Assembly: GCA_024235695.1 (NCBI GenBank)
Contig: JACKLX010000007.1
Coordinates: 1 to 64,000 of the forward strand
DNA length: 64,000 nucleotides
Direction of reading: 5' to 3'
Origin: Accumulibacter sp.
Lineage (GTDB): Bacteria > Pseudomonadota > Gammaproteobacteria > Burkholderiales > Rhodocyclaceae
Shown: piece after piece, positions 49,329 through 64,000 of the stretch
Position numbering within the stretch: the first letter of the stretch is position 1
Layout of the letters: the number at the start of each line of letters is the position of its first letter
Notes under the pieces: model-generated
The model's database searches: none
Seen by the model: only the letters and a program-made list of their open reading frames with translations
Told to the model about the DNA's origin: nothing
Program-made: the position numbers and the translations under genes

Positions 49329-49436
49329 TCCTGTTATTTGGCACCATGTCCTGGTCAGCCAGTGAATCCGTCATCGGCGACTTCCCCGCACAGCTTCCCG
49401 CAGCGGCACACCACCTTCAATCACCAGGAGAAAGCG

Positions 49437-50315
49437 ATGAGCAAGAAAGCAAAGTCAGCCAAGAAAGCCAGGCGTGAGAACATCTCCGGCCCGGATGCGC
49501 AGGCACCATCCGCCGTCAGCGACGCCTCGGTGCCAGCGAAGAAACTGTCCAACAAGGCCTACCTGAAGGAACTCGAAAAACTCGAGGCCGAGTTGGTTCA
49601 CCTCCAGCAATGGGTGGTTAGCAAGGGCCTCAAGGTGATCATCGTCTTCGAAGGCCGCGACGGAGCCGGCAAGGGCGGCACGATCAAGGCGATCACCGGT
49701 CGTGTCAGTCCGCGCATCTTCCGCGTCGTCGCGCTGCCCGCGCCGAATGACCGCGAGAAGAGCCAGATGTACCTGCAACGCTACCTGCCGCACTTTCCGG
49801 CAGCCGGCGAAGTGGTGATCTTCGACCGCAGTTGGTACAACCGCGCCGGTGTCGAGCGGGTCATGGGTTTCGCCAGCGAGGAGCAGGTGCAGGACTTCCT
49901 CAAGGGGGCGCCGCTGTTCGAAAAACTCATGGTCAGCAAGAACGACATCATTCTGCTCAAGTACTGGCTCGAAGTCGACATGGACGAGCAGACACGCCGC
50001 CTCGAGGCGCGCATAACCGACCCGCGCAAGCAATGGAAGCTGTCACCGATGGACCTCAAGTCCTACAGCCGCTGGTACGACTATTCGCGGGCGCGCGACG
50101 CCATGTTCGAGGCCACCGATTCCGAATGGGCGCCGTGGTTCGCGGCGCGATCCAACGACAAGAAGCGGGTACGGCTGAACATCATCAGGCACATTCTGAA
50201 CAGCATTCCCTACGAAGTGGCGAAACCCGCGAAAATCACCCTGCCCAAAAGGCAGAGCGCCGGCAAGTACCAGGCCAGCGTTCATCCCGTGAAATACGTC
50301 CCGGAAGTCTACTGA
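49437..50315 (+). CDS. ppk2: Polyphosphate kinase 2
   Basis: Transfers phosphate between polyphosphate and nucleoside di- or monophosphates. The 292-residue protein from ATG 49437 (after CAGGAGAAAGCG) has Walker A FEGRDGAGKGGTIKAI, Walker B VVIFDRSWYNRAGVERVMGF and the lid LRKQW-like DPRKQWKLSPMDLKSYSRW. Length and motifs fit the one-domain class I PPK2. The first 35 residues are Lys/Ala-rich. Fits an organism cycling polyphosphate. It lies 108 bases after the RND operon, possibly cotranscribed. Confidence 0.93.
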   Translation: MSKKAKSAKKARRENISGPDAQAPSAVSDASVPAKKLSNKAYLKELEKLEAELVHLQQWVVSKGLKVIIVFEGRDGAGKGGTIKAITGRVSPRIFRVVALPAPNDREKSQMYLQRYLPHFPAAGEVVIFDRSWYNRAGVERVMGFASEEQVQDFLKGAPLFEKLMVSKNDIILLKYWLEVDMDEQTRRLEARITDPRKQWKLSPMDLKSYSRWYDYSRARDAMFEATDSEWAPWFAARSNDKKRVRLNIIRHILNSIPYEVAKPAKITLPKRQSAGKYQASVHPVKYVPEVY

Positions 50316-51425: not shown

Positions 51426-51873
51426 GGCTTTCTCCTCGCACGAAGCGCAAAGACTTGCGCAGATCATGGCAGCGCTGGTCGCGCCGCCGACGATTCGGCA
51501 GCGATCGGCGCTCCCGAGTAGTTCGACAGCCGCCACAACTATGGCGACGCAAACAGCATTGTACCTGCTGCGATAGCCCGTCGATCGACCGCTTCACCGG
51601 ACGACGTGGAACGTTCCGTGCCGCGTGCCGCCCGGCCCACGGCGAGGCACATCGAAGCCAGCGACGCCGACTGCGGCATCGACCGCCGCCGTGCATGCCG
51701 ATCGCGGCCCGAGCAGGCGCATGCGAAAGTCATCAAAGTCGCTTCGCCATTGCCACCACACGAATGCTTCAAGCATTGCGATCGCCGGGATGGCTACGAC
51801 ATGAACAATTCGCAAGATTCCTTTCGATAGGCGTATATTGCGAATCCGTGTCCTTTCGCCCGGAGCCAGGAAG
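51426..51873. other. Intergenic region, no clear gene
   Basis: Short frames on both strands (for example minus 51594-51815) have no recognisable domain or good start. The region separates the divergent unknown gene and SulP gene and should hold their promoters, but I cannot place them. Confidence 0.4.
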
Positions 51874-53604
51874 ATGAATGCTTCTGCCCTACTAAGGCAT
51901 CTGCAGACAGGGGTGCCGCTGCTCGCGACGCTGCGAAACTATCGACTGGCCTGGCTGAGCAAGGATTCGATCGCCGGCCTGTCGGCGTGCATCGTCTCGA
52001 TTCCGTCGGTGATTGCCTATGCCGAGCTGGTACACCTGCCGGCAATTACCGGCCTGTACGCGGCGCTGGCGGCGGCGATCGGCTACGCACTGTTTTCCAG
52101 TTCACGTCACGTCATCGCCGGACCCGATGCGGCGATCGGACTGCTCGCCGGTTCGGCGATCCTGCCGCTGTCGGGTGGCGATCCGGCACGCATCGTCGCC
52201 CTGGCGGCGGTGCTCAGCCTGCTGTCGGGTGTCGTGCTGCTGCTCGCCGCGCGACTGAAGCTGGGGGTCATCGCCGACCTGCTGTCGCGGCCGGTGCTGA
52301 TCGGCTACCTGAACGGCGCCTCGCTGGTGCTCATCGCGACGCAGCTCGGCAAGATGTTCGGCATCAAGACCGAGGGCGAGGAATTCTTCCAGATCGTCTA
52401 TACGGTATTCGAGAAACTGTCCGAGACGCATCTGGCGACTTTCATTTTCGGCGTGCTGCTGGTCGCCCTGCTGGTTGCCCTGGCGCGCTGGCTGCCGCGC
52501 GTACCAGGCGCGCTGGCGGTCTGCGCGGTGGCGATCACGGCCACTTTCGTCTTTGACCTGGGCAGCTACGGCATCGCCCTGGTCGGCGAGGTGCCCTCCG
52601 GTTTTCCGCATCTGTCGATTCCGTCGCTGCGCTGGGCAGATCTCGCGGCACTCGCACCGGCCGCCGTGGCGATCGCCTTCCTGGCATTTTCGGACGGTAT
52701 CCTGCTGGCACAGACCTTCGCCGAGAAGAACGGCTATGAAGTGCGCCCGAACCGCGAACTGGTCGCTCTGGGCTCGGCGAACATACTGGCCGGGCTCTGG
52801 CAGGGCTTTCCCGTTTCGGCCAGCCAGTCACGGACCTCGATCGTCGATTCGGCCGGCGGCAAGACACAGCTTGCGCAGGTGATCCTGGCCATCGGCCTGC
52901 TCCTGTTCCTGTTCTTCCTCACCGGTCTGATCGCGCTGCTGCCGAAAGTCGCGCTCGGCGCGATCCTGATCGTCACCGCCATCGGCATGCTGGAAGTAGC
53001 GTCGCTGAAGGGGCTGTACAAGATCGACCGGGTCGAGGCCGGCATTGCCCTGGGCGTCACCGCCGCAATCCTGCTGGCCGGCGTCGTGCCGGGGATCATT
53101 CTCGGTCTGCTGCTGTCGCTGGTCACGGTGCTGGTCGAGGTTTCGCGCCCCGATGACGCGGTGCTTCGCCGCTTGCGCAGCGACGGCAAGTTCCACGATT
53201 GTCTCGATGACGAGGAGGCAGAGAGCGTCCCCGGCCTGCTCGTTTACCGGCTCTACGCGCCGCTGATCTTTGCCAATGCCAGGCACGTGACGAATCGTAT
53301 CCGGACGCTGGTCGATGAAGCCGAGCCGCCGGTCAAGTGGCTGGTGATCGACGCGCAGGCGATCCACGACATGGACGTCACGGCGGCGCAGCGCTTTGTC
53401 GAGCTGCACCGGGAATTGATCGCCAGGGGGGTTGACGTCAAGATCGCCGATGCGCCGCGGCCTTTCCGCGAGGAACTCGCCAAGGTCGGGCTTTCCGAGG
53501 AAATCGGCGGGACGGACTTCTACGTTTCGGTCAAGCAGGCGACCCAGGACTTCGAGCGGCAGGCTGTTTCGCCAGCCGGGGAATCCGGCAAGACGCCGGA
53601 GTAG
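51874..53604 (+). CDS. SulP-family anion transporter with STAS domain
   Basis: A 576-residue transporter from ATG 51874. The SLC26/SulP core has about 12-14 helices (DSIAGLSACIVSIPSVIAYAELVHLPAITGLYAAL; FSSSRHVIAGPDAAIGLLAGSA), and a cytoplasmic STAS domain fills ~435-560 (LLVYRLYAPLIFANARHV, WLVIDAQAIHDMDVTAAQRFVEL). Substrates in the family are sulfate, bicarbonate, chloride or dicarboxylates; none can be chosen from sequence alone. Confidence 0.9.
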   Translation: MNASALLRHLQTGVPLLATLRNYRLAWLSKDSIAGLSACIVSIPSVIAYAELVHLPAITGLYAALAAAIGYALFSSSRHVIAGPDAAIGLLAGSAILPLSGGDPARIVALAAVLSLLSGVVLLLAARLKLGVIADLLSRPVLIGYLNGASLVLIATQLGKMFGIKTEGEEFFQIVYTVFEKLSETHLATFIFGVLLVALLVALARWLPRVPGALAVCAVAITATFVFDLGSYGIALVGEVPSGFPHLSIPSLRWADLAALAPAAVAIAFLAFSDGILLAQTFAEKNGYEVRPNRELVALGSANILAGLWQGFPVSASQSRTSIVDSAGGKTQLAQVILAIGLLLFLFFLTGLIALLPKVALGAILIVTAIGMLEVASLKGLYKIDRVEAGIALGVTAAILLAGVVPGIILGLLLSLVTVLVEVSRPDDAVLRRLRSDGKFHDCLDDEEAESVPGLLVYRLYAPLIFANARHVTNRIRTLVDEAEPPVKWLVIDAQAIHDMDVTAAQRFVELHRELIARGVDVKIADAPRPFREELAKVGLSEEIGGTDFYVSVKQATQDFERQAVSPAGESGKTPE

Positions 53605-54112: not shown

Positions 54113-54724
54113 ATGCGTTTACCCAGTGACTCAACCGGACGACATTGCTTGCGAACCATCGCCCTGCTTGGCGTGCTCTCGATCACAGCCTGCGGCCAGC
54201 GGGAAACTCCGCCGACGACTGCGGCGACGGCCACGACCGCGACGACCGAGCGCCCCGGGGCAGCCGACGCCAAGGGAGGCTTCACGGGCAACTGGACCAC
54301 CATCGGCAGCCGGCAGGTCCTCGACCTCGGACCCGGCCAGCAGGCAAGCATATTCCAACTCAGCGGTTCGATGCTGCTGAGTGGCAGGGAGCGCATCAAT
54401 CGCGGCTTTCAGGCGCAGCTGATCGGCTTTTCCGACACCACCACCGGCCTGCAGGGACGCAGCGTGTGGACGGACGAGCACGGTGACAAGGTCTTCAGCG
54501 AGTTGGGCGGCGAAGGCCTTGGCCCCGGTCAGTTGATCGAAGGCAAGTTCACCGGTGGCACCGGTCGCTACGCCGGAATCAGCGGTGAATACAGCTTCAA
54601 ATGGAAGCGCATCGGCGCTATCGAAGGCAACGAACTGACCGGGCGCGTCGTCGGTCTGAGTGGCTGGGCCCGCCTCGGCTCGTCCAGTGTGGTTGCTCCC
54701 ACCACTGCAGGAGGTCAACAATGA
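54113..54724 (+). CDS. Lipoprotein with small beta-barrel-like domain
   Basis: A 203-residue protein from ATG 54113 behind AGGAGG. The signal LRTIALLGVLSITACGQ has the lipobox ITAC. A Thr/Ala linker (~30-50) precedes a beta-rich domain with GGFTGNWTTIGS, FSDTTTGLQGRSVWTDEHGDKVFSEL and GKFTGGTGRYAGISGEYSFKWKR. The G-T-G-R-Y-x-G-x-x-G pattern resembles allene-oxide-cyclase-like/dirigent-type barrels. Function unknown. Its stop overlaps the DASS transporter start, so the two are probably made together, perhaps as a substrate-capturing or envelope partner. Confidence 0.7.
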   Translation: MRLPSDSTGRHCLRTIALLGVLSITACGQRETPPTTAATATTATTERPGAADAKGGFTGNWTTIGSRQVLDLGPGQQASIFQLSGSMLLSGRERINRGFQAQLIGFSDTTTGLQGRSVWTDEHGDKVFSELGGEGLGPGQLIEGKFTGGTGRYAGISGEYSFKWKRIGAIEGNELTGRVVGLSGWARLGSSSVVAPTTAGGQQ

Positions 54725-56136
54725 GCACAGCCGCTTTCGGAACGGGAAGAATCGTCAAGTTGGTGGGACTGCTGATTATCTTCTTTGGCCTCTGGTTCGC
54801 GCCGGTTCCCGAGGGATTGACCGTTGAAGCCTGGCATCTCTTTGCCGTCTTCGCGTCGGCGATCACCTCGGTGGTGCTCAATGTCTTCCCGCTATTCACT
54901 TCTGCCTTGCTGGCCTGCGCGATCGTCGTACTCACCAACACGCTGACGCCAGCCAAGGCCTACGGCGCCTTTGCCAACGCCATCGTGCTGCTGGTGGTGA
55001 CCGCTTTCCTGGTCTCGCAAGCGGTGGTCAAGAGCGGCCTCGGCAAGCGGATCAGTCTGCGGGTGATCACGGTATTCGGGAAATCGACGCTCGGCTTGGC
55101 GTACAGCATTTTCATCACCGACACCCTGATCGCCCCCGGCTTCCCGAGCAATACCGCCCGCGGTGGCGTGCTCTTCCCGGTCATCCTGGCGCTGGCGCAG
55201 AACAGCGGCTCGACGCCCGACGACGAGAACAAGCGACGTCTTGGCGGCTACCTGATGTTCTGCGGCATGGCCAGCCTGGCGATCACCTCGGCGCTGTGGT
55301 TCACCGCCACCTCGGGCAATCCGGTCGGAGCGTCACTGGCCGCCGATCAGGGCCTGAAAGTCGATTTCGGCTCGTGGCTGCTCGCCTCCTCCGTACCGTG
55401 TCTGGTGGTGATCGCCGTACTGCCGCTGCTGCTCTACAAGCTCTTCCCCCCTGGCATCACCAGCACCCCGGATGCTCCGGAGAACGCCCGCAAGGAATTG
55501 CGTACCATGGGGCCGATGTCGCGCCACGAGTGGATTACGGCTATCACCTTCGCGATCATGGTCACCGGCTGGATCCTGGCCGCTCCCTACAAGCTGAACC
55601 TGACGGCGATCGCCCTTGCCGGTCTCGCCACGCTGATGATCACCGGCGTTCTGACGATGGACGACATGAGCAAGCAGGGTGGCACGCTGGTGACTTTCAT
55701 CTGGCTGGCCGTTCTTTTCGGCATGAGCGGACAACTGAACGAAATGGGCTTCATGGGCTACGTCGGCGAGCGGTTGGCCGTCGGGCTGGAAGGTCTCGCC
55801 TGGCCGGTCGCCTACGTCGCGCTGCTGGTCATCTATGTCCTGCTCCACTTCGGCTTCGTCAGTCAGAACGCCCAGGTCCTGGCGCTGCTCGGCGTGTTTC
55901 TCGATGTCGGTGTGAAATCGGGCGTTCCCGTCGCCTTGATGGCTTATGCGCTGTTGTTTGCCAGCAGTTACTTCTCGGTCATCACGCCTCAGGGCGGCAG
56001 CCAGAACATCATCTTCGTCGCCAGCGGCTACCTGAAACAGAGCGAACTGTACCGCCTGGGACTGTCGACGACAGTCTTCTGTACCGTGGTTTTTCTGGTC
56101 ATCGGCACTCCCTGGATACTCTGGGTCGGCGGCTAG
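54721..56136 (+). CDS. DASS-family (divalent anion:sodium symporter) carboxylate transporter
   Basis: A 471-residue membrane protein with ~12-13 helices. Family marks are the first substrate/sodium loop in LIAPGFPSNTARGGVLFP, with SNT, and the second in FSVITPQGGSQNIIF. Relatives carry malate, succinate or 2-oxoglutarate. ATG 54721 lies in an ATGA overlap with the lipoprotein and follows AGGAGG. A decarboxylase gene starts 110 bases downstream, suggesting that substrate or counter-ion supply for it is the job. Confidence 0.88.
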   Translation: MSTAAFGTGRIVKLVGLLIIFFGLWFAPVPEGLTVEAWHLFAVFASAITSVVLNVFPLFTSALLACAIVVLTNTLTPAKAYGAFANAIVLLVVTAFLVSQAVVKSGLGKRISLRVITVFGKSTLGLAYSIFITDTLIAPGFPSNTARGGVLFPVILALAQNSGSTPDDENKRRLGGYLMFCGMASLAITSALWFTATSGNPVGASLAADQGLKVDFGSWLLASSVPCLVVIAVLPLLLYKLFPPGITSTPDAPENARKELRTMGPMSRHEWITAITFAIMVTGWILAAPYKLNLTAIALAGLATLMITGVLTMDDMSKQGGTLVTFIWLAVLFGMSGQLNEMGFMGYVGERLAVGLEGLAWPVAYVALLVIYVLLHFGFVSQNAQVLALLGVFLDVGVKSGVPVALMAYALLFASSYFSVITPQGGSQNIIFVASGYLKQSELYRLGLSTTVFCTVVFLVIGTPWILWVGG

Positions 56137-56246
56137 CTGGAACCAGCCGGGGATACCGGGCCCGTGCTCGCCGCGGGCATCTCGGACGAGCGAAAGCGCC
56201 CACCTAGCCGGCGGCAGCGAACCGCCGGTCCTTCTGGAGACAAGTC

Positions 56247-59063
56247 ATGACTATCGACACCGGAACTGGCCGCAGCGCGGCCCCACTGAGCCGCCACCGC
56301 AGCGTTTGGGAAGTGCGATCGGAAAGCTGGATCGGGCTGGTCGACCACCTGTCGCAACTCGCCAAGTTGCCCCCGGATGACTCCGGTCGGGAAGGCCGCT
56401 TGACGAAGGTGCAGGCCCTGACCGAAGCCTTGCGACCGATTGAAGCCTGTTGGGCGTATCCCGGCCGTCGCGCCTTCGCCGACCTGTGCGCACACATCGA
56501 TCGCGGCGATCTGGCGCTGGCGGCGATCGCGGCTCGTCGCACTCATCGCACGCTGGCCTCGCTGACCTATCGCCACGAGGGTACGACGCCAAGGAACGAT
56601 GCCGACCTACCCTCGCAGATCGAAAGCGAGCAGGAGTACCAGGCGCAACTGCGCTGCCCATACTTCGAGGTACTCGTGGTCGATGACATGCCAGCCGACG
56701 AAGAGGAATCCCTGCATCGTCACGTGCGCAGCGAGCGCCGCGCCGACGACGATTTCGTCTTCGACGTGGTGGTCGTGCCGACCTTCGAGGACGCGCTGGT
56801 TGCGACGATGGTGAACTTCAACCTGCAGGCGGTCGTCATCCGCTACGGCTTTCCCTACCGCTCGATCCATTTCGCCGAGCTGACGATGCGGCGCTTCTTT
56901 GAAGGCGCTGACGTCGACGGCGAGCTGCTGCCGGAGTCCGAACGCGGTCCGTTGCTGGGGAGGCAGATCGCGCGCTTGCGTCCCGAGCTGGATCTCTATC
57001 TGGTCACCGACGTCAATGTCGAGGACGTCGCTGCGAAGGCCGGGGAGACCTTCAACCGCATCTTCTTTGGCGAGGAAGACAAGCTGGAACTCAACCACTC
57101 GATCATGCAGGGCGTTGCCGAACGTTACCACACACCGTTCTTCGAAGCGCTGTGCAAGTACGCCAAGCAGCCGACCGGCGTCTTCCACGCCCTGCCGCTG
57201 GCGCGTGGCAAGTCGATCATGAACTCGAACTGGATCGGCGATCTTGGGCAGTTCTATGGCATGAACCTGTTCATGGCGGAAACCTCGGCCACCTCGGGCG
57301 GGCTCGATTCTCTGCTCGAGCCCACCGGCTCGCTGAAACTGGCGCAGGAGTACGCTGCGCGGGCCTTCGGCTCGCGCCGCAGCTTCCTGGTCACCAACGG
57401 CACATCAACGGCCAACAAGATCGTCGTGCAGGCGATTGTCCGGCCAGACGACATCGTCCTGGTCGACCGCAACTGCCACAAGTCCCACCACTACGGCATG
57501 GTGCTGGCGGGCGCGCAGGTCACCTACCTCGAGGCCTATCCGCTGCACGAGTACTCGATGTACGGCGCGGTGCCGATCCGCCACATCAAGGAGACGCTGC
57601 TCGAGTTGCGCCGCGCCGGGACGCTGAACCGCGTGCGCATGGTGCTGCTGACCAACTGCACGTTCGACGGCATCGTCTACAACGTCGAGCGACTGATGCT
57701 CGAGTGCCTGGCGATCAAACCCGACCTGGTGTTCCTGTGGGACGAGGCGTGGTTCGCCTTCGCCCGCTTCCACCCGGTCTACCGCCAACGCACCGGCATG
57801 GCGGCGGCCGCCAAGCTGACGGAGATGTTCCAGAGCGAGGAGTACGCCAAACGCTATGCCGAGTTTGCCAGAGGTTTTGACGAGGCGGCCTGGGCGGATG
57901 ACGACAAGGTGCTGAACACCCGTCTGCTGCCCGATCCCGCGAAAGCACGCGTTCGCGTCTACGCCACGCAGTCGACCCACAAGACGCTGACTTCGCTGCG
58001 CCAGGGCTCGATGATCCACGTCTGGGATCAGGACTTCAAGGACAAGACCGAGGAGGCTTTCCATGAGGCCTACATGACGCACACCTCGACTTCACCCAAC
58101 TACCAGATCCTCGCCTCGCTCGACGTCGGTCGGCGGCAAATGGAGCTGGAAGGCTACGAACTGGTGCAGCGCCAACTCGAGCTGGCGATGAACCTGCGCG
58201 ACCAGGTCGGCGCGCATCCCCAGCTCAAGAAGCACTTCCGTTTCCTGACCGTGACCGATCTGGTACCGGAGGAATTTCGCGAGTCGCAGGTCGAATCGCT
58301 GTACAACATGGATACCGGCTGGGCGAACCTGTTGAAAGCCTGGCGTTTCGACGAGTTTGCGCTCGACCCGAGCCGCGCCACGCTGGCCATCGGCCTGACC
58401 GGGATGGATGGTGACACGATCAAGAACAAGTACCTGATGGACAAGTACGACATCCAGATCAACAAGACCTCGCGCAACACGGTGCTGTTCATGACCAACA
58501 TCGGCACCACCCGCTCGACCATCGCCTATCTGCTCGGAGTGCTGGTCAAGATCGCCCGCGACGTGGACGACAGGGTCCGCGACATGAGCACTCCGGAACG
58601 TCGCATCCATGAAAAGCGCGTCCGCTCGCTGACCCTCGAGCTGCCGCCGCTGCCCAACTTCTCGTGCTTCCACCAGGCCTTCCGCGGCCACAGCCTGGAT
58701 GGGCAGAGCGAGACGCGCGATGGTGACGTCCGCAGCGCCTTCTTCCTCGGCTACGAAGATGGCAACTGCGAGTACCTGACCATGGACGATACGGCGCAGG
58801 CGATCAAGAATGGACGCGAATGCGTCTCCGCCCAGTTCGTCATCCCCTACCCGCCCGGCTTCCCGATTCTCGTTCCCGGGCAAGTGATCAGTGCCGAAAT
58901 ATTGCAGTTCATGCAGGCGCTCGACGTGCGCGAGATCCATGGTTTCCGGCCTGAACTGGGTTTTCGCATCTACACCGAAGCGGCCCTCGAACTGGCAGGG
59001 CAGGCAAACGCGGTGTGGAAGGCCCAGATCAATGCCAGCGCCGGGGCGGCCGAGGGCGAATGA
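56247..59063 (+). CDS. Orn/Lys/Arg decarboxylase-family PLP enzyme with extended N-terminus
   Basis: A 938-residue fold-type I PLP enzyme, longer than the ~715-755 of CadA/SpeC/AdiA. Residues ~1-130 have no counterpart I recognise. Residues ~140-235 resemble the receiver-like wing domain (YFEVLVVDDMPADEEES, VVIRYGFPYRS). The core follows with TNGTSTANKIVVQAI, the pyridine-binding Asp499 in FLWDEAWFAFARFHPVY and the PLP lysine K579 in TQSTHKTLTSLRQGSMIHV, as in lysine and arginine decarboxylases. The C-terminal domain has ISAEILQFMQALDVREIHGF. Amino-acid specificity is undetermined. GGAGAC precedes ATG 56247. It probably decarboxylates a basic amino acid to an amine for the next enzymes. Confidence 0.85.
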   Translation: MTIDTGTGRSAAPLSRHRSVWEVRSESWIGLVDHLSQLAKLPPDDSGREGRLTKVQALTEALRPIEACWAYPGRRAFADLCAHIDRGDLALAAIAARRTHRTLASLTYRHEGTTPRNDADLPSQIESEQEYQAQLRCPYFEVLVVDDMPADEEESLHRHVRSERRADDDFVFDVVVVPTFEDALVATMVNFNLQAVVIRYGFPYRSIHFAELTMRRFFEGADVDGELLPESERGPLLGRQIARLRPELDLYLVTDVNVEDVAAKAGETFNRIFFGEEDKLELNHSIMQGVAERYHTPFFEALCKYAKQPTGVFHALPLARGKSIMNSNWIGDLGQFYGMNLFMAETSATSGGLDSLLEPTGSLKLAQEYAARAFGSRRSFLVTNGTSTANKIVVQAIVRPDDIVLVDRNCHKSHHYGMVLAGAQVTYLEAYPLHEYSMYGAVPIRHIKETLLELRRAGTLNRVRMVLLTNCTFDGIVYNVERLMLECLAIKPDLVFLWDEAWFAFARFHPVYRQRTGMAAAAKLTEMFQSEEYAKRYAEFARGFDEAAWADDDKVLNTRLLPDPAKARVRVYATQSTHKTLTSLRQGSMIHVWDQDFKDKTEEAFHEAYMTHTSTSPNYQILASLDVGRRQMELEGYELVQRQLELAMNLRDQVGAHPQLKKHFRFLTVTDLVPEEFRESQVESLYNMDTGWANLLKAWRFDEFALDPSRATLAIGLTGMDGDTIKNKYLMDKYDIQINKTSRNTVLFMTNIGTTRSTIAYLLGVLVKIARDVDDRVRDMSTPERRIHEKRVRSLTLELPPLPNFSCFHQAFRGHSLDGQSETRDGDVRSAFFLGYEDGNCEYLTMDDTAQAIKNGRECVSAQFVIPYPPGFPILVPGQVISAEILQFMQALDVREIHGFRPELGFRIYTEAALELAGQANAVWKAQINASAGAAEGE

Positions 59064-59126
59064 ATTGGCCGCTGGCGAGCGCCAACCCGGCATTCCTTTT
59101 GTGGCAACAACCGTGAGGAGACAGCA

Positions 59127-60584
59127 ATGGCTTTCAAAGTAAAGACGATTTCCGACCTGCGGCTGATGTTCCACCGCAACGAGCGGCCGATCTATTTCAT
59201 CAGCGCCACCAACTTCAATCTGCTGGGAATCGATCAATGGGTCAATCGCTTCCGCTTCATCAGCTATATCGATTGCTTTGACGGTCGCCATCCGAATGTC
59301 TTCGTGCCGCAGGAAACGCCGCACGACGAGTTCACGTCGATCGAGGACATCAACAACTACATGTTGCAGCACAAGGACGTGATCGACTTCATCGAGCGCC
59401 GCGGTGGCAGCCCGGCAGCGACCTTCCTGATGTTCGACGAGAAAACCGAGGCTCTGGCCAAGGAACTGGGCATGGAAGTCTGGTTCCCGCCAGCCAAGCT
59501 GCGCCAGCGTTGCGACAACAAGATGGAAACGGTACGTATCGGCAACAAGGCCGGCGTCGCGTCGGTGCCGAACGCCCTCGAGAAGGTGAGTAGCTTCGCC
59601 AATCTGATGGAGATCGCCGAGCGCAACGGCCTCGGCAAGCACCTGGTCCTGCAGTCGGCCTTTGGCGATTCCGGCCACACGACCTTCTTCATTTCGAACG
59701 AAGACGATTTCAACAAGCACAAGGACGACATCTGCAAGGATCCCGAAATCAAGATCATGAAGCGCATCAACTGCCGTGGGGCGACGCTCGAAGCCTGCGC
59801 GACGCAGTCGGGAACGCTGGTCGGGCCGATGCTCACCGAAGTCGTCGGCGCCAGCGAACTGACGCCCTACAAGGGCGGCTGGTGTGGCAACGAGGTATTC
59901 CCCGGTTCATTCTCCGAAGCCGTGCGCGCCAAGGTCAGAGAGATGACCGAGCGCTTTGGCAATCAGTTGATCGAGGAAGGTTATCGCGGCTACTTCGACC
60001 TCGATTTCCTGATCGACCAGGACGGCGGCGAGGTCTACCTCGGCGAACTGAACCCGCGCGTCTGCGGCGCCAGCCCGATGACCAACCACGCCGCCTTTGC
60101 CTACGCCGATGCGCCGCTGTTCCTGTTCCACCTGCTGGAATTCTCCGGCGTGCCGTTCGACCTCAACGTCAGTGAAATCAACGAGCGCTGGGCGCAGCCG
60201 CACTTCATCGATTCCTGGTCGCAGGTGGTGATGAAGTACACCGAACAGCACGTCGATCAGGTCACACACGCGCCAGGCACCGGCATTTACCGGATGAGCG
60301 AAGACGGCAGCGTCAGCTTCCAGCGCTTCGACTATAACCGCCAGGCGATCGACAGCGAGCGCGAGGCCTTCTTCCTGCGCATCACCGGCCCCGGTGACTA
60401 CCGCTACGAGGGCGCCGACCTGGGCATCCTGATCACGCGCGGCCGTTCGATGGACGATAACTTCAAACTCAACCTGCGCGCCCGTGACTGGATTCGCGGC
60501 ATCAAGCAGTACTATGCCGGCCGGCCGATCGTTACCACCGAGCACGAGGCGGCACCAGAGCCCGGCGCGTTCAAGATCCTTTGA
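59127..60584 (+). CDS. Free-standing ATP-grasp ligase
   Basis: A 485-residue protein with the ATP-grasp fold: nucleotide-binding part ~120-230 (RQRCDNKMETVRIGNKAGVAS, HLVLQSAFGDSGHTTFFI) and metal/catalytic loop RGYFDLDFLIDQDGGEVYLG, with E307 and N309 in ELNPRVCGASPMTNH. Databases would probably label it biotin carboxylase-like, but no carboxyl-carrier or carboxyltransferase gene is adjacent. ATP-grasp enzymes of this shape join a carboxylate to an amine, and the upstream gene makes an amine; an amide-ligase role is inferred. ATG 59127 follows GAGGAGACAGC. Stop overlaps the next start. Confidence 0.75.
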   Translation: MAFKVKTISDLRLMFHRNERPIYFISATNFNLLGIDQWVNRFRFISYIDCFDGRHPNVFVPQETPHDEFTSIEDINNYMLQHKDVIDFIERRGGSPAATFLMFDEKTEALAKELGMEVWFPPAKLRQRCDNKMETVRIGNKAGVASVPNALEKVSSFANLMEIAERNGLGKHLVLQSAFGDSGHTTFFISNEDDFNKHKDDICKDPEIKIMKRINCRGATLEACATQSGTLVGPMLTEVVGASELTPYKGGWCGNEVFPGSFSEAVRAKVREMTERFGNQLIEEGYRGYFDLDFLIDQDGGEVYLGELNPRVCGASPMTNHAAFAYADAPLFLFHLLEFSGVPFDLNVSEINERWAQPHFIDSWSQVVMKYTEQHVDQVTHAPGTGIYRMSEDGSVSFQRFDYNRQAIDSEREAFFLRITGPGDYRYEGADLGILITRGRSMDDNFKLNLRARDWIRGIKQYYAGRPIVTTEHEAAPEPGAFKIL

Positions 60585-61600
60585 CCGCCGTGCCACGCGC
60601 GGACCAGCCGATCCACCAGCACTTCACGGCGCTGGTGGAGGATGCGCCCGGCCCATTGTGGCAGGCGCTTTTTGAACGCTGCTGGCCCGGCTACCGCGAC
60701 TGGTACCTGCGCAGTGGCGTCTTCGGTCGGCCCAGCTACCTCGAGTGTCGGCGTGCCCTGCGCGAGCACATGCCCGAGCTGGTGCCCACCTGGACGCGGC
60801 TGGTCGAGTTGGCAGGTGGTGGCGACGTCGAGGCGCGTGCCCTCTCCATGTGGTGCCCGCCGGCTTACATTGCCGGTTGCGCGCAGGCCGTATGGATTGA
60901 TCCCGCTGGCGCGCAAGGCCCGGCCCTGTTGCGCAACTACGACTACGCCCCGGCCTTGCTGGAAGGCAACTGGCTGGCCACGCGCTGGTGCGGCCAGCGG
61001 GTGCTGGCCATGGCTGATTGCCTGTGGGGTGTACTGGATGGCATGAACGAGGCGGGCCTGGCCGCGTCATTGAGCTTCGGGGGCAGAACGCAGGCCGGCG
61101 AAGGGTTCGGCATCCCGCTGGTGATGCGCTACCTGCTCGAGGTGTCAAGCACCGTCGAGGAGGCTTGCGCGGTGCTCAAGCGCGTCCCCGTGCACATGTC
61201 CTACAGCATCACCCTGCTCGATACTGACGGACATTGGGCGACCGTGTTCGTCGGACCAGACGCGGCGACCTATGTAAGTCGCCGGCGGGCAATCACCAAC
61301 TTTCAGCACAAGGTGGATTGGCCAGAGCACGCCAGGGCGACTTCTGCCGTGGAGCGCCTGAATACCCTCGAGCATCTGGTCGACAAGACGCATTCCTTGC
61401 CGCAGGTCGCGGCGGCGCTGCTGCAGCCGCCGCTGTTCCAAACCAGTTATCGACGCGGCTACGGTACGCTTTACAGTGCTCTTTACCAGCCGACAGAGCG
61501 CCTTGTCGAACTCTTCTGGCAAGACCAGCGCTGGCAGCAGTCCTTGCTCGCGCCGCAGGCCGGCGAGCGCCACATCGTCTTCCCGACCGGCCCGAGCTGA
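60581..61600 (+). CDS. C45-like Ntn hydrolase / acyltransferase
   Basis: A 339-residue protein resembling the acyl-CoA:6-aminopenicillanate acyltransferase (C45) family. The expected autoprocessing and nucleophile cysteine is C100 in YIAGCAQAVW, followed by ALLRNYDYAP (R118, N119, D121), the family's RN-x-D motif. GVLDGMNEAGLAASLSFGG and TNFQHKVDWPEHARATSAVERL are further family-like blocks. Start TTG 60581 overlaps the ATP-grasp stop; GTG 60590 is an alternative. C45 enzymes form or cut amide bonds, so a coupled pair with the ligase is suggested. Cleavage at C100 would leave a 99-residue alpha chain. Confidence 0.7.
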   Translation: MTAVPRADQPIHQHFTALVEDAPGPLWQALFERCWPGYRDWYLRSGVFGRPSYLECRRALREHMPELVPTWTRLVELAGGGDVEARALSMWCPPAYIAGCAQAVWIDPAGAQGPALLRNYDYAPALLEGNWLATRWCGQRVLAMADCLWGVLDGMNEAGLAASLSFGGRTQAGEGFGIPLVMRYLLEVSSTVEEACAVLKRVPVHMSYSITLLDTDGHWATVFVGPDAATYVSRRRAITNFQHKVDWPEHARATSAVERLNTLEHLVDKTHSLPQVAAALLQPPLFQTSYRRGYGTLYSALYQPTERLVELFWQDQRWQQSLLAPQAGERHIVFPTGPS

Positions 61601-61645
61601 AGCCGACCTATCACCAATTGTCCGTTTGCAAAGGAGACCGAAACG

Positions 61646-62551
61646 ATGTTCACAATTTCGCGGCGCCTCGTCATTGCTGTAACACTCGCCACTGCCCTGA
61701 TCTCGGCGCCGGTTCTGGCGCAGGATCTGACCGGTACGCTGAAGAAGATCAAGGAAACCGGGGTGATCACTCTGGGACATCGGGAATCGTCGATGCCGTT
61801 CTCGTACTATGACGACAAGCGGCAGGTCGTCGGCTACTCGCAGGACATGATGCTCAAGGCGGTAGATGCGATCAAGGCCGAACTTAAACTTCCCAAGCTC
61901 GAAATCAAGCTCGTTCCGGTCACCTCCGAGAATCGCATCACGCTCGTTCAGGATGGCACGGTCGACCTGGAATGCGGTTCGACGACCAACACCACCGAAC
62001 GTCAGAAACAGGTCAGCTTCTCCAACAGCATATTCGTTGTCGCGACGCGTCTGATGACCAAGAGCAGTTCCGGGATCAAGGACTTCCCTGACCTTGCTGG
62101 CAAGAATGTCGTGACCACCGCCGGCACCACCTCCGAACGCCTGCTGCGCAAGATGAACGAAGATAACCACATGAAAATGAAGATCATCAGCGCGAAGGAT
62201 CACGGGGACGCGTTCCAGACCCTGGAAAGTGGCCGCGCGGCCGCCTTCGTGATGGACGAAGTGCTGCTGTACGGCGAAATGGCGAGCGCCAAGAACCCGC
62301 GCGAGTGGGCCGTCGTCGGCACGCCACAGTCGTACGAAGCCTATGCCTGCATGATGCGCAAGGATGACCCGGCGTTCAAGAAGGTCGTCGATGACGCGCT
62401 CGCCAAGGTGATGACCTCGGGCGAAGCCGAGAAGCTCTACGCCAAGTGGTTCCTGCAGCCGATCCCGTCGAAGGGCCTGACCCTCAACTTCGCGCTTTCG
62501 TACGCCCTCAAGAAGCTGTACAAGTCGCCCAACGACAAGGCTTACGAGTAG
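61646..62551 (+). CDS. Periplasmic amino-acid binding protein (GltI-like)
   Basis: A 301-residue type II periplasmic binding protein. The signal peptide is RLVIAVTLATALISAPVLAQ; ITLGHRESSMPFSYYDDKRQVVGYSQDM starts lobe I; VDLECGSTTNTTERQKQVSFS and VVTTAGTTSERLL are typical of glutamate/aspartate binders (GltI). ATG 61646 follows AAAGGAG. No ABC permease or ATPase gene follows, so it works with subunits encoded elsewhere or as a scavenging partner of the cluster. It lies 45 bases after the C45-like gene. Confidence 0.88.
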   Translation: MFTISRRLVIAVTLATALISAPVLAQDLTGTLKKIKETGVITLGHRESSMPFSYYDDKRQVVGYSQDMMLKAVDAIKAELKLPKLEIKLVPVTSENRITLVQDGTVDLECGSTTNTTERQKQVSFSNSIFVVATRLMTKSSSGIKDFPDLAGKNVVTTAGTTSERLLRKMNEDNHMKMKIISAKDHGDAFQTLESGRAAAFVMDEVLLYGEMASAKNPREWAVVGTPQSYEAYACMMRKDDPAFKKVVDDALAKVMTSGEAEKLYAKWFLQPIPSKGLTLNFALSYALKKLYKSPNDKAYE

Positions 62552-62878: not shown

Positions 62879-64000
62879 TCAGGCGCCTACCGCCTGCAGC
62901 GACGCCTCGATGATGTCCAGACCTTCGTCCAGTACGGCCTCCGGGATGGTCAGCGGCACCATCACCCGCAGGACATTGCCGTGCGGCCCACACAACAGCA
63001 GCAGCAAACCGCGTTTTGCCGCTTCGTTCTTCAGGGAAGTGGCGATGTCGGCCGCCGGTTGCTTCGCGTCGCCATCACGGCAGAACTCCACGGCCGTCAT
63101 CGCGCCCAGCCCGCGCACCTCGGCGATCGTCGAGAACTGGGCCTGCATGGCCTCGAAGCGCGCGCGCATGCGTTCGCCAAGCACCATCGAGCGCTCGCAG
63201 AGCTTTTCTGCCTCGACGACGTCGAGGACCGCCAGGGCGCCGGCAACCGCCACCGGATTTCCCGCATAGGTCGATCCCAGGCCGCCAACGTCCGCGGCAT
63301 CCATGATCTGCGCCTTGCCGACCACCGCGGCAATCGGCAAGCCGCCGCCAAGGCCCTTGGCCATGGTGATGATGTCGGGCTCGACATCGTAGTGCTCGCT
63401 GGCAAACAGTCTGCCGCAGCGGGCAACGCCGGTCTGCACTTCATCGGCGACCAGAAGGATGCCGTGCGTGTCGCACAGCGCGCGCAGGCGGCGCAGAAAA
63501 CCGAGCGGCGCCGGCACGTAGCCACCTTCGCCCTGGACCGGCTCGATGAAGATCGCCGCAACGCGCGAGGCTTCGATACTGGTCGCGAACAGTCGCTCGA
63601 TGGCGGCGATGGAATCTTCTTCCGACACCCCCTGCAGGGCATTCGGGAAGGGAACATGGAAGATCTCGCCGGGGAATGGCCCGAACTTGATCTTGTAGGG
63701 AGCGATCTTGCCGGTCAGCGCCATGCCGAACATCGTGCGACCATGGAAACCGCCGCCGAAAGCGATCAGCCCCGAGCGCCCGGTCGCCGCACGGGCGATC
63801 TTGACGGCGTTCTCGACAGCCTCGGCGCCGGTATTGACGAGGAAAGATTTCTTCGGAGTGCTGCCCGGGGCGGCCGCATTGAGCCGCTCGCACAGCTCGA
63901 CGTACGATTCGTAGGCCACCACCTGGAAACAGGTATGGGTAAAGGTCGACAGTTGCTGGCGCGCCGCATCGACGACCCGGGGATGGCAGTGACCGGTATT
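62879..64000 (-). CDS. gabT: 4-aminobutyrate-type aminotransferase (5' part beyond window)
   Basis: The 373 visible residues open at the window edge with NTGHCHPRVVDAARQQLSTFTHTCFQVVAYE, so only the first ~50 residues are missing. Class III aminotransferase marks are NTGAEAVENAVKIAR, GGFHGRTMFGMALTGK, EPVQGEGGY, LLVADEVQTGVARCGRLFA and the PLP lysine in ITMAKGLGGGLP. GabT converts GABA to succinic semialdehyde; relatives use 5-aminovalerate. It converges on the amine/ligase cluster, whose products could feed it. Confidence 0.9.
   Translation of the reverse strand, partial: NTGHCHPRVVDAARQQLSTFTHTCFQVVAYESYVELCERLNAAAPGSTPKKSFLVNTGAEAVENAVKIARAATGRSGLIAFGGGFHGRTMFGMALTGKIAPYKIKFGPFPGEIFHVPFPNALQGVSEEDSIAAIERLFATSIEASRVAAIFIEPVQGEGGYVPAPLGFLRRLRALCDTHGILLVADEVQTGVARCGRLFASEHYDVEPDIITMAKGLGGGLPIAAVVGKAQIMDAADVGGLGSTYAGNPVAVAGALAVLDVVEAEKLCERSMVLGERMRARFEAMQAQFSTIAEVRGLGAMTAVEFCRDGDAKQPAADIATSLKNEAAKRGLLLLLCGPHGNVLRVMVPLTIPEAVLDEGLDIIEASLQAVGA

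Follow-up and report, generated by a model that had tools for sequence, protein, structure and literature searches.

Several described systems form an amide and later cut it. In the Ebony/Tan pair and with the butirosin enzymes BtrJ, BtrK and BtrG, an amide of β-alanine or of γ-Glu-GABA (GABA, 4-aminobutyrate) is made and then cleaved; Tan is a member of the C45/AAT family, BtrJ is an ATP-grasp protein and BtrK is a decarboxylase. The Puu pathway of γ-glutamyl-putrescine uses an ATP-dependent amide ligase and later an amidase, and it ends in GABA. A protein of related interest is Rv2531c of Mycobacterium tuberculosis, for which PMC12910592 lists the structure PDB 9N0O and, where it deals with this protein, gives the activity as not clarified. 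Here we describe a six-gene operon of Accumulibacter sp. (54113-62551) in which a long pyridoxal phosphate (PLP)-dependent decarboxylase of the Rv2531c type, an ATP-grasp ligase and a C45-family enzyme lie together. The operon is part of a stretch of 64,000 nucleotides (assembly GCA_024235695.1, contig JACKLX010000007.1, positions 1 to 64,000), called the window below. The ligase and C45 genes were a near-constant pair in proteobacteria, with the decarboxylase as their usual third member, and in some relatives the decarboxylase was replaced by an arginine-related gene set. We tentatively propose that the three enzymes make and break an amide of GABA.

We scanned GTDB genomes with the ligase and obtained 558 stretches encoding relatives, from which the best 80 loci were kept, a choice biased to near kin. 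The C45 gene directly followed the ligase gene in 79 of the 80 loci, and did so in alpha-, beta- and gammaproteobacteria alike; the sole locus without it (L037) stops inside the ligase at a contig end. Because this adjacency holds in three proteobacterial classes, the gene cluster is no chance grouping. The decarboxylase was present on the same strand in 60 loci (46 upstream, 14 downstream of the ligase), a CN-hydrolase (nitrilase) in 62, although not at the window copy, and a set of genes with a racemase (the racemase set) in 13. When matches of at least 45% identity were counted, leaving out three weaker ones to gabT and one to succinate-semialdehyde dehydrogenase (SSADH), gabT was found in 35 loci and SSADH in 25. 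Since contig ends truncate many of the loci, the 54 that have 6 kb or more upstream and 4.5 kb or more downstream were counted separately: C45 was present in 54, nitrilase in 48, the decarboxylase in 42, gabT in 29, SSADH in 20 and the racemase set in 10. None of these 54 had both front ends, that is, decarboxylase and racemase set, and two (L033, L061) had neither.

An earlier, sequence-only reading of this DNA had proposed an undescribed amine-amide system in which the decarboxylase, the ligase and the C45-like enzyme act together. The pairing of ligase and C45 and the decarboxylase as their partner are borne out by these counts (60/80 and 42/54 loci with the decarboxylase), within the limits set by the 12 of 54 long-flank loci that have no decarboxylase and by one betaproteobacterial family (f169, 61 genomes). 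The outcome that the earlier reading had named as refuting, ligase and C45 genes mostly lacking the decarboxylase, did not arise among these 80 loci. In f169 the ligase and C45 co-occurred in the same nine genomes, and none of the 61 gave a window-type decarboxylase at E <= 1e-100, with a query that does match in other genomes and has no positive control within f169. Two distant genomes (L090, L091), whose ligases are 43-44% identical, have decarboxylase, ligase and C45 in one locus. A class-wide sample of 143 genomes gave two with the ligase, two with C45 and three with the decarboxylase, too few for co-occurrence counts, and an order-wide sample of 250 gave three with the ligase. In single loci the matches were incomplete or split: C45 was matched only in part in L013 and the decarboxylase in two pieces in L077 and L085, through either assembly error or decay.

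In the 13 loci with the racemase set (Shinella, Labrys, Rhizobium, other Rhizobiales and Thiothrix/Thiofilum), the decarboxylase was absent from the locus and the set stood in its place, in one run with the ligase and C45 (two of the 13 are incomplete). All 13 have an Orr-like racemase, a D-amino-acid dehydrogenase and an aldehyde dehydrogenase, 11 an AruI-type 5-guanidino-2-oxopentanoate decarboxylase, 11 an amino-acid permease, nine an agmatinase-type ureohydrolase, nine an Lrp regulator and eight RidA; within the ligase loci, DadA was present only in these 13. The AruI-like protein scored 735 bits over a cutoff of 500 (NF005712), the agmatinase/ureohydrolase 216 over 174 (TIGR01230) and DadA 464 over 383, and the Orr-like racemase, with 400 bits, lay below its cutoff of 480. 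Enzymes of such a set are able to take arginine through 4-guanidinobutyrate to GABA. At L052:12657-14594 the racemase is a fusion protein that has part of an arginase-family domain at its C terminus (PF00491; 49 bits over profile positions 98-247 of 280).

We then placed these loci on a tree of the ligase (89 rows; a quick tree with support only from the Shimodaira-Hasegawa-like approximate likelihood-ratio test, SH-aLRT, and with some long branches). The racemase label needed three changes on it, Thiothrix/Thiofilum were placed apart from the Rhizobiales, and the racemase-type Shinella enclosed two decarboxylase-bearing copies from Rhizobium plasmids. Since the front ends swap while the ligase and C45 remain, these two unrelated sets suggest a common product. 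The product common to a glutamate decarboxylase and the arginine route would be GABA, whereas an Arg, Lys or Orn decarboxylase shares none with that route. An FAD oxidase was considered as a component of the loci in betaproteobacteria and rejected, as the open reading frames (ORFs) listed proved by eye to be DctA-like symporters or wrong-frame.

The decarboxylase has 938 residues, about 190 more than the classical ornithine/lysine/arginine (OKR) decarboxylase of the same genome (745). It belongs to the OKR superfamily by its Pfam match (Table 1) and by its PLP lysine, Lys579, which the sequence-only reading had already picked out: when the window protein, together with 56 relatives, was aligned to the classical enzyme of the same genome, this residue faced the PLP lysine of the latter and was invariant (57/57 rows). 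As to membership of the Lys, Arg or Orn decarboxylases proper, all six NCBIfam models scored far below their cutoffs (best 230 bits versus 968). At the position of Glu562 in the classical VEK motif, presumably the contact to the distal amine, all 57 rows have Asn739, and the window protein reads ALPLARG in place of the classical CPGHSGG, with Arg320 invariant. Both Asn739 and Arg320 were still exceptionless in 64 rows, when four proteins of a sister clade and three from plasmids were added. The only full-length solved relative found by sequence was Rv2531c (831 bits, residues 26-923).

The sister-clade decarboxylases are 47-49% identical to the window protein, and in seven of the seven loci examined they adjoin an AspT-type aspartate-alanine antiporter (five loci by annotation, L110 by tblastn, L092 by tblastn and hidden Markov model); the plasmid search gave 15 records of this kind, of which six were examined. 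One of the loci also has SSADH and a class-III transaminase. No ligase match was found there, by similarity in L092 and by annotation in five others. The decarboxylase stands with one or more AspT antiporters in L101, L102, L103, L108 and L109; L103 and L108 carry an aspartate 4-decarboxylase, and L103 has an HdeA/HdeB-family chaperone nearby. These loci look like an undescribed amino-acid-dependent acid-resistance system.

Because of the Glu to Asn exchange and the AspT neighbours of the sister clade, the substrate of the decarboxylase is probably acidic and not Lys, Arg or Orn. Glutamate, giving GABA, would be preferred over aspartate because gabT and SSADH, which both score above their family cutoffs for GABA catabolism, adjoin the operon and because the arginine set yields GABA. 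Thus the amine-amide proposal keeps its ligase/C45 pair, its decarboxylase and its Glu/Asp binding protein and finds no support for a Lys, Arg or Orn substrate, against which the exchange, the antiporters and the gabT/SSADH pair all speak. Out of its sight lay the nitrilase, the SSADH gene beyond the window, the second module copy of the genome and the alternative racemase/DadA/AruI/ALDH/SpeB set.

The family that the ligase matches, PRK06524, is called 'biotin carboxylase', which is a label rather than a demonstrated function; there was no Pfam match above cutoff. The ligase model (predicted local distance difference test, pLDDT, 87) was closest in Foldseek to biotin carboxylase and PurK (template modelling (TM) score 0.5-0.6, best E 8.8e-18), and neither a biotin carrier nor a carboxyltransferase partner was present among the nine window proteins scanned, in agreement with the ATP-grasp fold without biotin partners read earlier from the sequence. 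D293, E307, N309 and R311, presumed metal/phosphate residues, were invariant in 45 rows. When its ELNPRVCGAS stretch was set against EMNTRIQVEH of AccC (weakly aligned; hhalign probability 7.5%), the Glu that we take to be the catalytic (bicarbonate) base of biotin carboxylase was replaced by Ala315, a residue conserved to 90% or more in the 45 rows. A true biotin carboxylase is disfavoured by this motif and by the lack of biotin partners among the scanned proteins, and for the same two reasons an amide ligase is the better guess.

The C45 protein matches its family model (Table 1) and fits the Ntn-type (N-terminal nucleophile) GC...RNYD protein seen by the sequence-only reading: the presumed nucleophile Cys100 and R118-N119-Y120-D121 were invariant in 43/43 rows. 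Its model (pLDDT 93) has isopenicillin N acyltransferase (2x1c) as the nearest fold (TM 0.60-0.67). Between ligase, C45 and decarboxylase, pairwise distances correlated at 0.81-0.90 (n = 76, 57 and 54), values inflated by shared descent, and none of 500 permutations reached them.

In the chain that we propose, an acidic amino acid would be decarboxylated by the long PLP enzyme, with glutamate as the likeliest substrate and GABA as its product. The ATP-grasp ligase would then use ATP to activate a carboxylate and form an amide between two partners, one of them GABA, and the C45 enzyme would break or transfer this amide. The nitrilase-family amidase would be a further hydrolase in most relatives, and free GABA would be burnt by the neighbouring GabT and SSADH. 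In Shinella, Labrys, Thiothrix and their kin, GABA would come from arginine by way of the racemase, the D-amino-acid dehydrogenase, the 2-oxo-acid decarboxylase, the aldehyde dehydrogenase and mostly the ureohydrolase. We regard the whole chain, from GABA source through ligase and C45 to disposal by GabT/SSADH, as possible rather than probable. It may also be, and we say so with some doubt, that the Rv2531c-type enzymes are a separate acidic-amino-acid (glutamate) decarboxylase family within the OKR superfamily, whose proteobacterial branch feeds a GABA conjugate that is made by PRK06524 ligases, broken by C45 and nitrilase, fed also from arginine and, in some rhizobia, encoded on symbiosis plasmids.

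Several points weigh against this chain. The ligase could act ahead of the decarboxylase, and no reported activity was found for any of the three families (decarboxylase, PRK06524 ligase, C45 partner). The distal-amine role of the classical Glu is presumed, and the genome has one PF00282 match, of glutamate or aromatic type, which, if it is a glutamate decarboxylase, would make a second one redundant. The sister-clade AspT could point to aspartate, and in two of the seven loci the aspartate 4-decarboxylase may itself be the partner of AspT. In the racemase-type loci the gene-by-gene family scan covered one of the 13, the rest being assigned by similarity. The one f169 genome that was read (L089) has nitrilase, ligase and C45 alone, with neither GABA source adjoining. 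Finally, two amidases for one ligase are odd, and the nitrilase is unexplained: its distances track gabT (0.94, n = 31, and still 0.94 without the weaker matches) more than the ligase (0.58-0.60; 0.60 in the same 31 loci). Because they follow gabT so much more closely, the nitrilase may be part of the transaminase reaction step in the loci that have both (L008-L088).

We also considered whether the ligase might put glutamate on an amine as acyl protection, as in Puu, so that the conjugate is the substrate of the decarboxylase (or of the oxidative set) and GABA is finally released by C45. The near-inseparable ligase and amidase suit such a put-on and take-off step, the loss of Glu in the decarboxylase also fits a neutral, acylated substrate, and both alternative modules work at the α carbon. 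However, the sister clade without a ligase match sits with AspT, which fits free acidic amino acids, no amine oxidase was recognised among the recurrent neighbour clusters, and the arginine set is able to reach GABA unprotected; we therefore hold this explanation to be unlikely. Distinctly unlikely is a mere neighbourhood, in which the decarboxylase has a task unrelated to the one shared by ligase, C45 and nitrilase, and both tasks concern glutamate or nitrogen supply. It would account for the 20 of 80 ligase-C45 loci without the decarboxylase (some cut by contig ends) and for the nine of nine such genomes in f169, but not for a decarboxylase that is swapped for one particular set, never found with it in the 54 loci, and correlated in distance at 0.87-0.90, partly by shared descent.

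If the decarboxylase acted on aspartate, the module would be built on β-alanine and the rest of the proposed chain could stay as it is. The AspT neighbours of the sister clade, joined in two of seven loci by aspartate 4-decarboxylase, would agree with this, as would the aspartase/fumarase-family gene that adjoins two ligase loci (L020 and L081) and the β-alanyl-amine hydrolase Tan among the C45 relatives. Yet gabT and SSADH are above their family cutoffs and the arginine set would give GABA instead of β-alanine, so that we judge the β-alanine version improbable. The same degree of improbability attaches to the polyamine version of the sequence-only reading, in which Lys, Arg or Orn gives an amine that the ligase acylates and C45 cleaves. 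The decarboxylase does lie within the OKR superfamily and the alternative set is arginine-related; against this stand the scores far below the six Lys/Arg/Orn cutoffs, the Asn at the classical Glu position together with gained Arg residues, and the finding that, among recurrent neighbours, the only polyamine catabolic gene recognised was the agmatinase-type one in the alternative set. A weak further point is that deletion of Rv2531c, the M. tuberculosis homologue, is reported to have left growth on arginine unimpaired (PMC4569260). That the ligase is a biotin-independent, PurK-like carboxylase using bicarbonate is highly improbable: the Foldseek matches and the family name would allow it, but the Ala at the base position in the weak AccC alignment, the lack of a biotin carrier among the nine proteins and the pairing with a presumed amidase, which fits an amide, speak against it.

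The layout of the operon is given in Table 1. The six genes on one strand, with overlaps and gaps as the sequence-only reading had them, were reproduced: the lipoprotein-like ORF and the transporter overlap by 4 bases, as do ligase and C45, and the gaps are 110 bases between transporter and decarboxylase, 63 between decarboxylase and ligase and 45 between C45 and the binding protein. The family scores likewise upheld its DASS transporter and its acidic-amino-acid binding protein. No ABC (ATP-binding cassette) permease for the latter was found among the scanned neighbours.

Table 1. Genes of the operon and the two genes that follow it (window positions; starts of the six operon genes are predicted start codons)
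Feature	Position	Strand	Basis
Lipoprotein-like ORF, no family assigned	54113-54724	+	Family scans; in Accumulibacter loci only
DASS-family sodium-coupled anion symporter	54721-56136	+	TIGR00785, 308 bits, cutoff 199
Long PLP decarboxylase, Rv2531c type, OKR superfamily	56247-59063	+	OKR_DC_1 PF01276, 255 bits, cutoff 27
ATP-grasp ligase, NF005096/PRK06524 'biotin carboxylase'	59127-60584	+	785 bits, cutoff 684
C45-family Ntn-type acyltransferase/amidase	60581-61600	+	NF040521, 166 bits, cutoff 85
Glutamate/aspartate-type ABC binding protein	61646-62551	+	NF008063, 438 bits, cutoff 375
gabT, 4-aminobutyrate transaminase	62879-64000, on to about C7:64162	-	TIGR00700, 567 bits, cutoff 507
SSADH	after gabT, beyond the window	-	TIGR01780, 726 bits, cutoff 646

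gabT is the next gene past the binding-protein gene. Because the DASS and lipoprotein genes occur in only six of the 80 ligase loci, every one from Accumulibacter, they are lineage-specific additions; the nearest ligases found (97 and 96% identical) are also from Accumulibacter records. A nitrilase was found by tblastn neither in the window nor in C7:60000-74000, where two ORFs gave no Pfam match. Upstream lie a polyphosphate kinase 2 (TIGR03707, over cutoff; 49338-50315) and a SulP anion transporter (51838-53604), fitting a polyphosphate-accumulating host and outside the module. Recurrent neighbours in the ligase loci are a Glu/Asp binding protein (15 loci), a TAXI-type binding protein (12), a DctA/GltP-like symporter (10) and an NAD-glutamate dehydrogenase (6). 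Next to the stand-alone module of the f169 genome, Pfam found KdpD, KdpC and a KdpB-like ATPase (L089:12693-18229), a hint of an osmotic function. The names of the NAD-glutamate dehydrogenase, the GntR/MocR regulator and the transaminase were likewise checked with Pfam.

The same genome carries a second, diverged module copy on another contig (L088, G000:C20:26000-44000), where the genes run gabT, nitrilase, ligase, C45, decarboxylase; its decarboxylase and C45 are 58 and 54% identical to those of the window, and near it are a MocR-type regulator, an ADP-forming-type acyl-CoA ligase and a TAXI-type binding protein. On plasmid p3 of Rhizobium leguminosarum OyaliB (L106, 5989-11180), decarboxylase, ligase and C45 stand beside nifHDKE, followed by an ABC transporter; this is a symbiosis plasmid, and in a second module copy on it (L095) transposase genes interrupt after the ligase. 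A candidate relative only, the 'putative biotin carboxylase' Bphy_7724 of the Paraburkholderia phymatum symbiotic plasmid, is reported as up-regulated in nifA mutant bacteroids (PMC8305402).

The three families are thereby tied into one testable unit, which occurs in Acinetobacter baylyi, Variovorax, Delftia, Cupriavidus and Accumulibacter as well as on rhizobial plasmids. Were its metabolite defined, all three would gain a function, the names 'biotin carboxylase' and 'Orn/Lys/Arg decarboxylase' in the databases would be put right, and a substrate class would be suggested for the M. tuberculosis enzyme, whose structure is solved.

Compared with the known systems, the decarboxylase is closest to Rv2531c (PDB 9n0n, 9n0o, 9n0p), which is homologous over the whole length, has the equivalent of Asn739 in place of Glu and the equivalent of Arg320 in the ALPxARG motif, and differs in having Ile where the family described here has Arg743. 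With the classical OKR decarboxylases (AdiA, CadA, SpeC) it has in common the PLP domain, the STHK lysine and core motifs, while it lacks the CPGHSGG and the Glu562 of the genome's own, shorter classical enzyme and misses every family cutoff. Glutamate decarboxylase (GAD)/GABA systems (gadBC; the GABA shunt) share the presumed step from glutamate to GABA and the adjoining GabT and SSADH, and the sister clade likewise has an antiporter beside its decarboxylase, but one of AspT type; the decarboxylase is another superfamily member, and we know of no counterpart of the ligase and C45 in those systems. The logic of Puu is that of the proposed chain, but its ligase PuuA is glutamine-synthetase-like, in place of the ATP-grasp ligase and Ntn-type enzyme here, and no PuuB-like oxidase was recognised as a constant member of the module loci. 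Ebony/Tan and the Btr enzymes resemble the operon in enzyme types and differ in that the window proteins scanned include no ligase like a nonribosomal peptide synthetase and no carrier protein. Isopenicillin N acyltransferase shares its fold and its Cys nucleophile with C45, at about 15% identity and with an apparently unrelated substrate. Each fold is already known; what may be new, with no match in the open-access literature searched (subscription papers and preprints lay outside it), is the gene combination, the swap of its front end and the probable acidic substrate of the Rv2531c-type enzymes.

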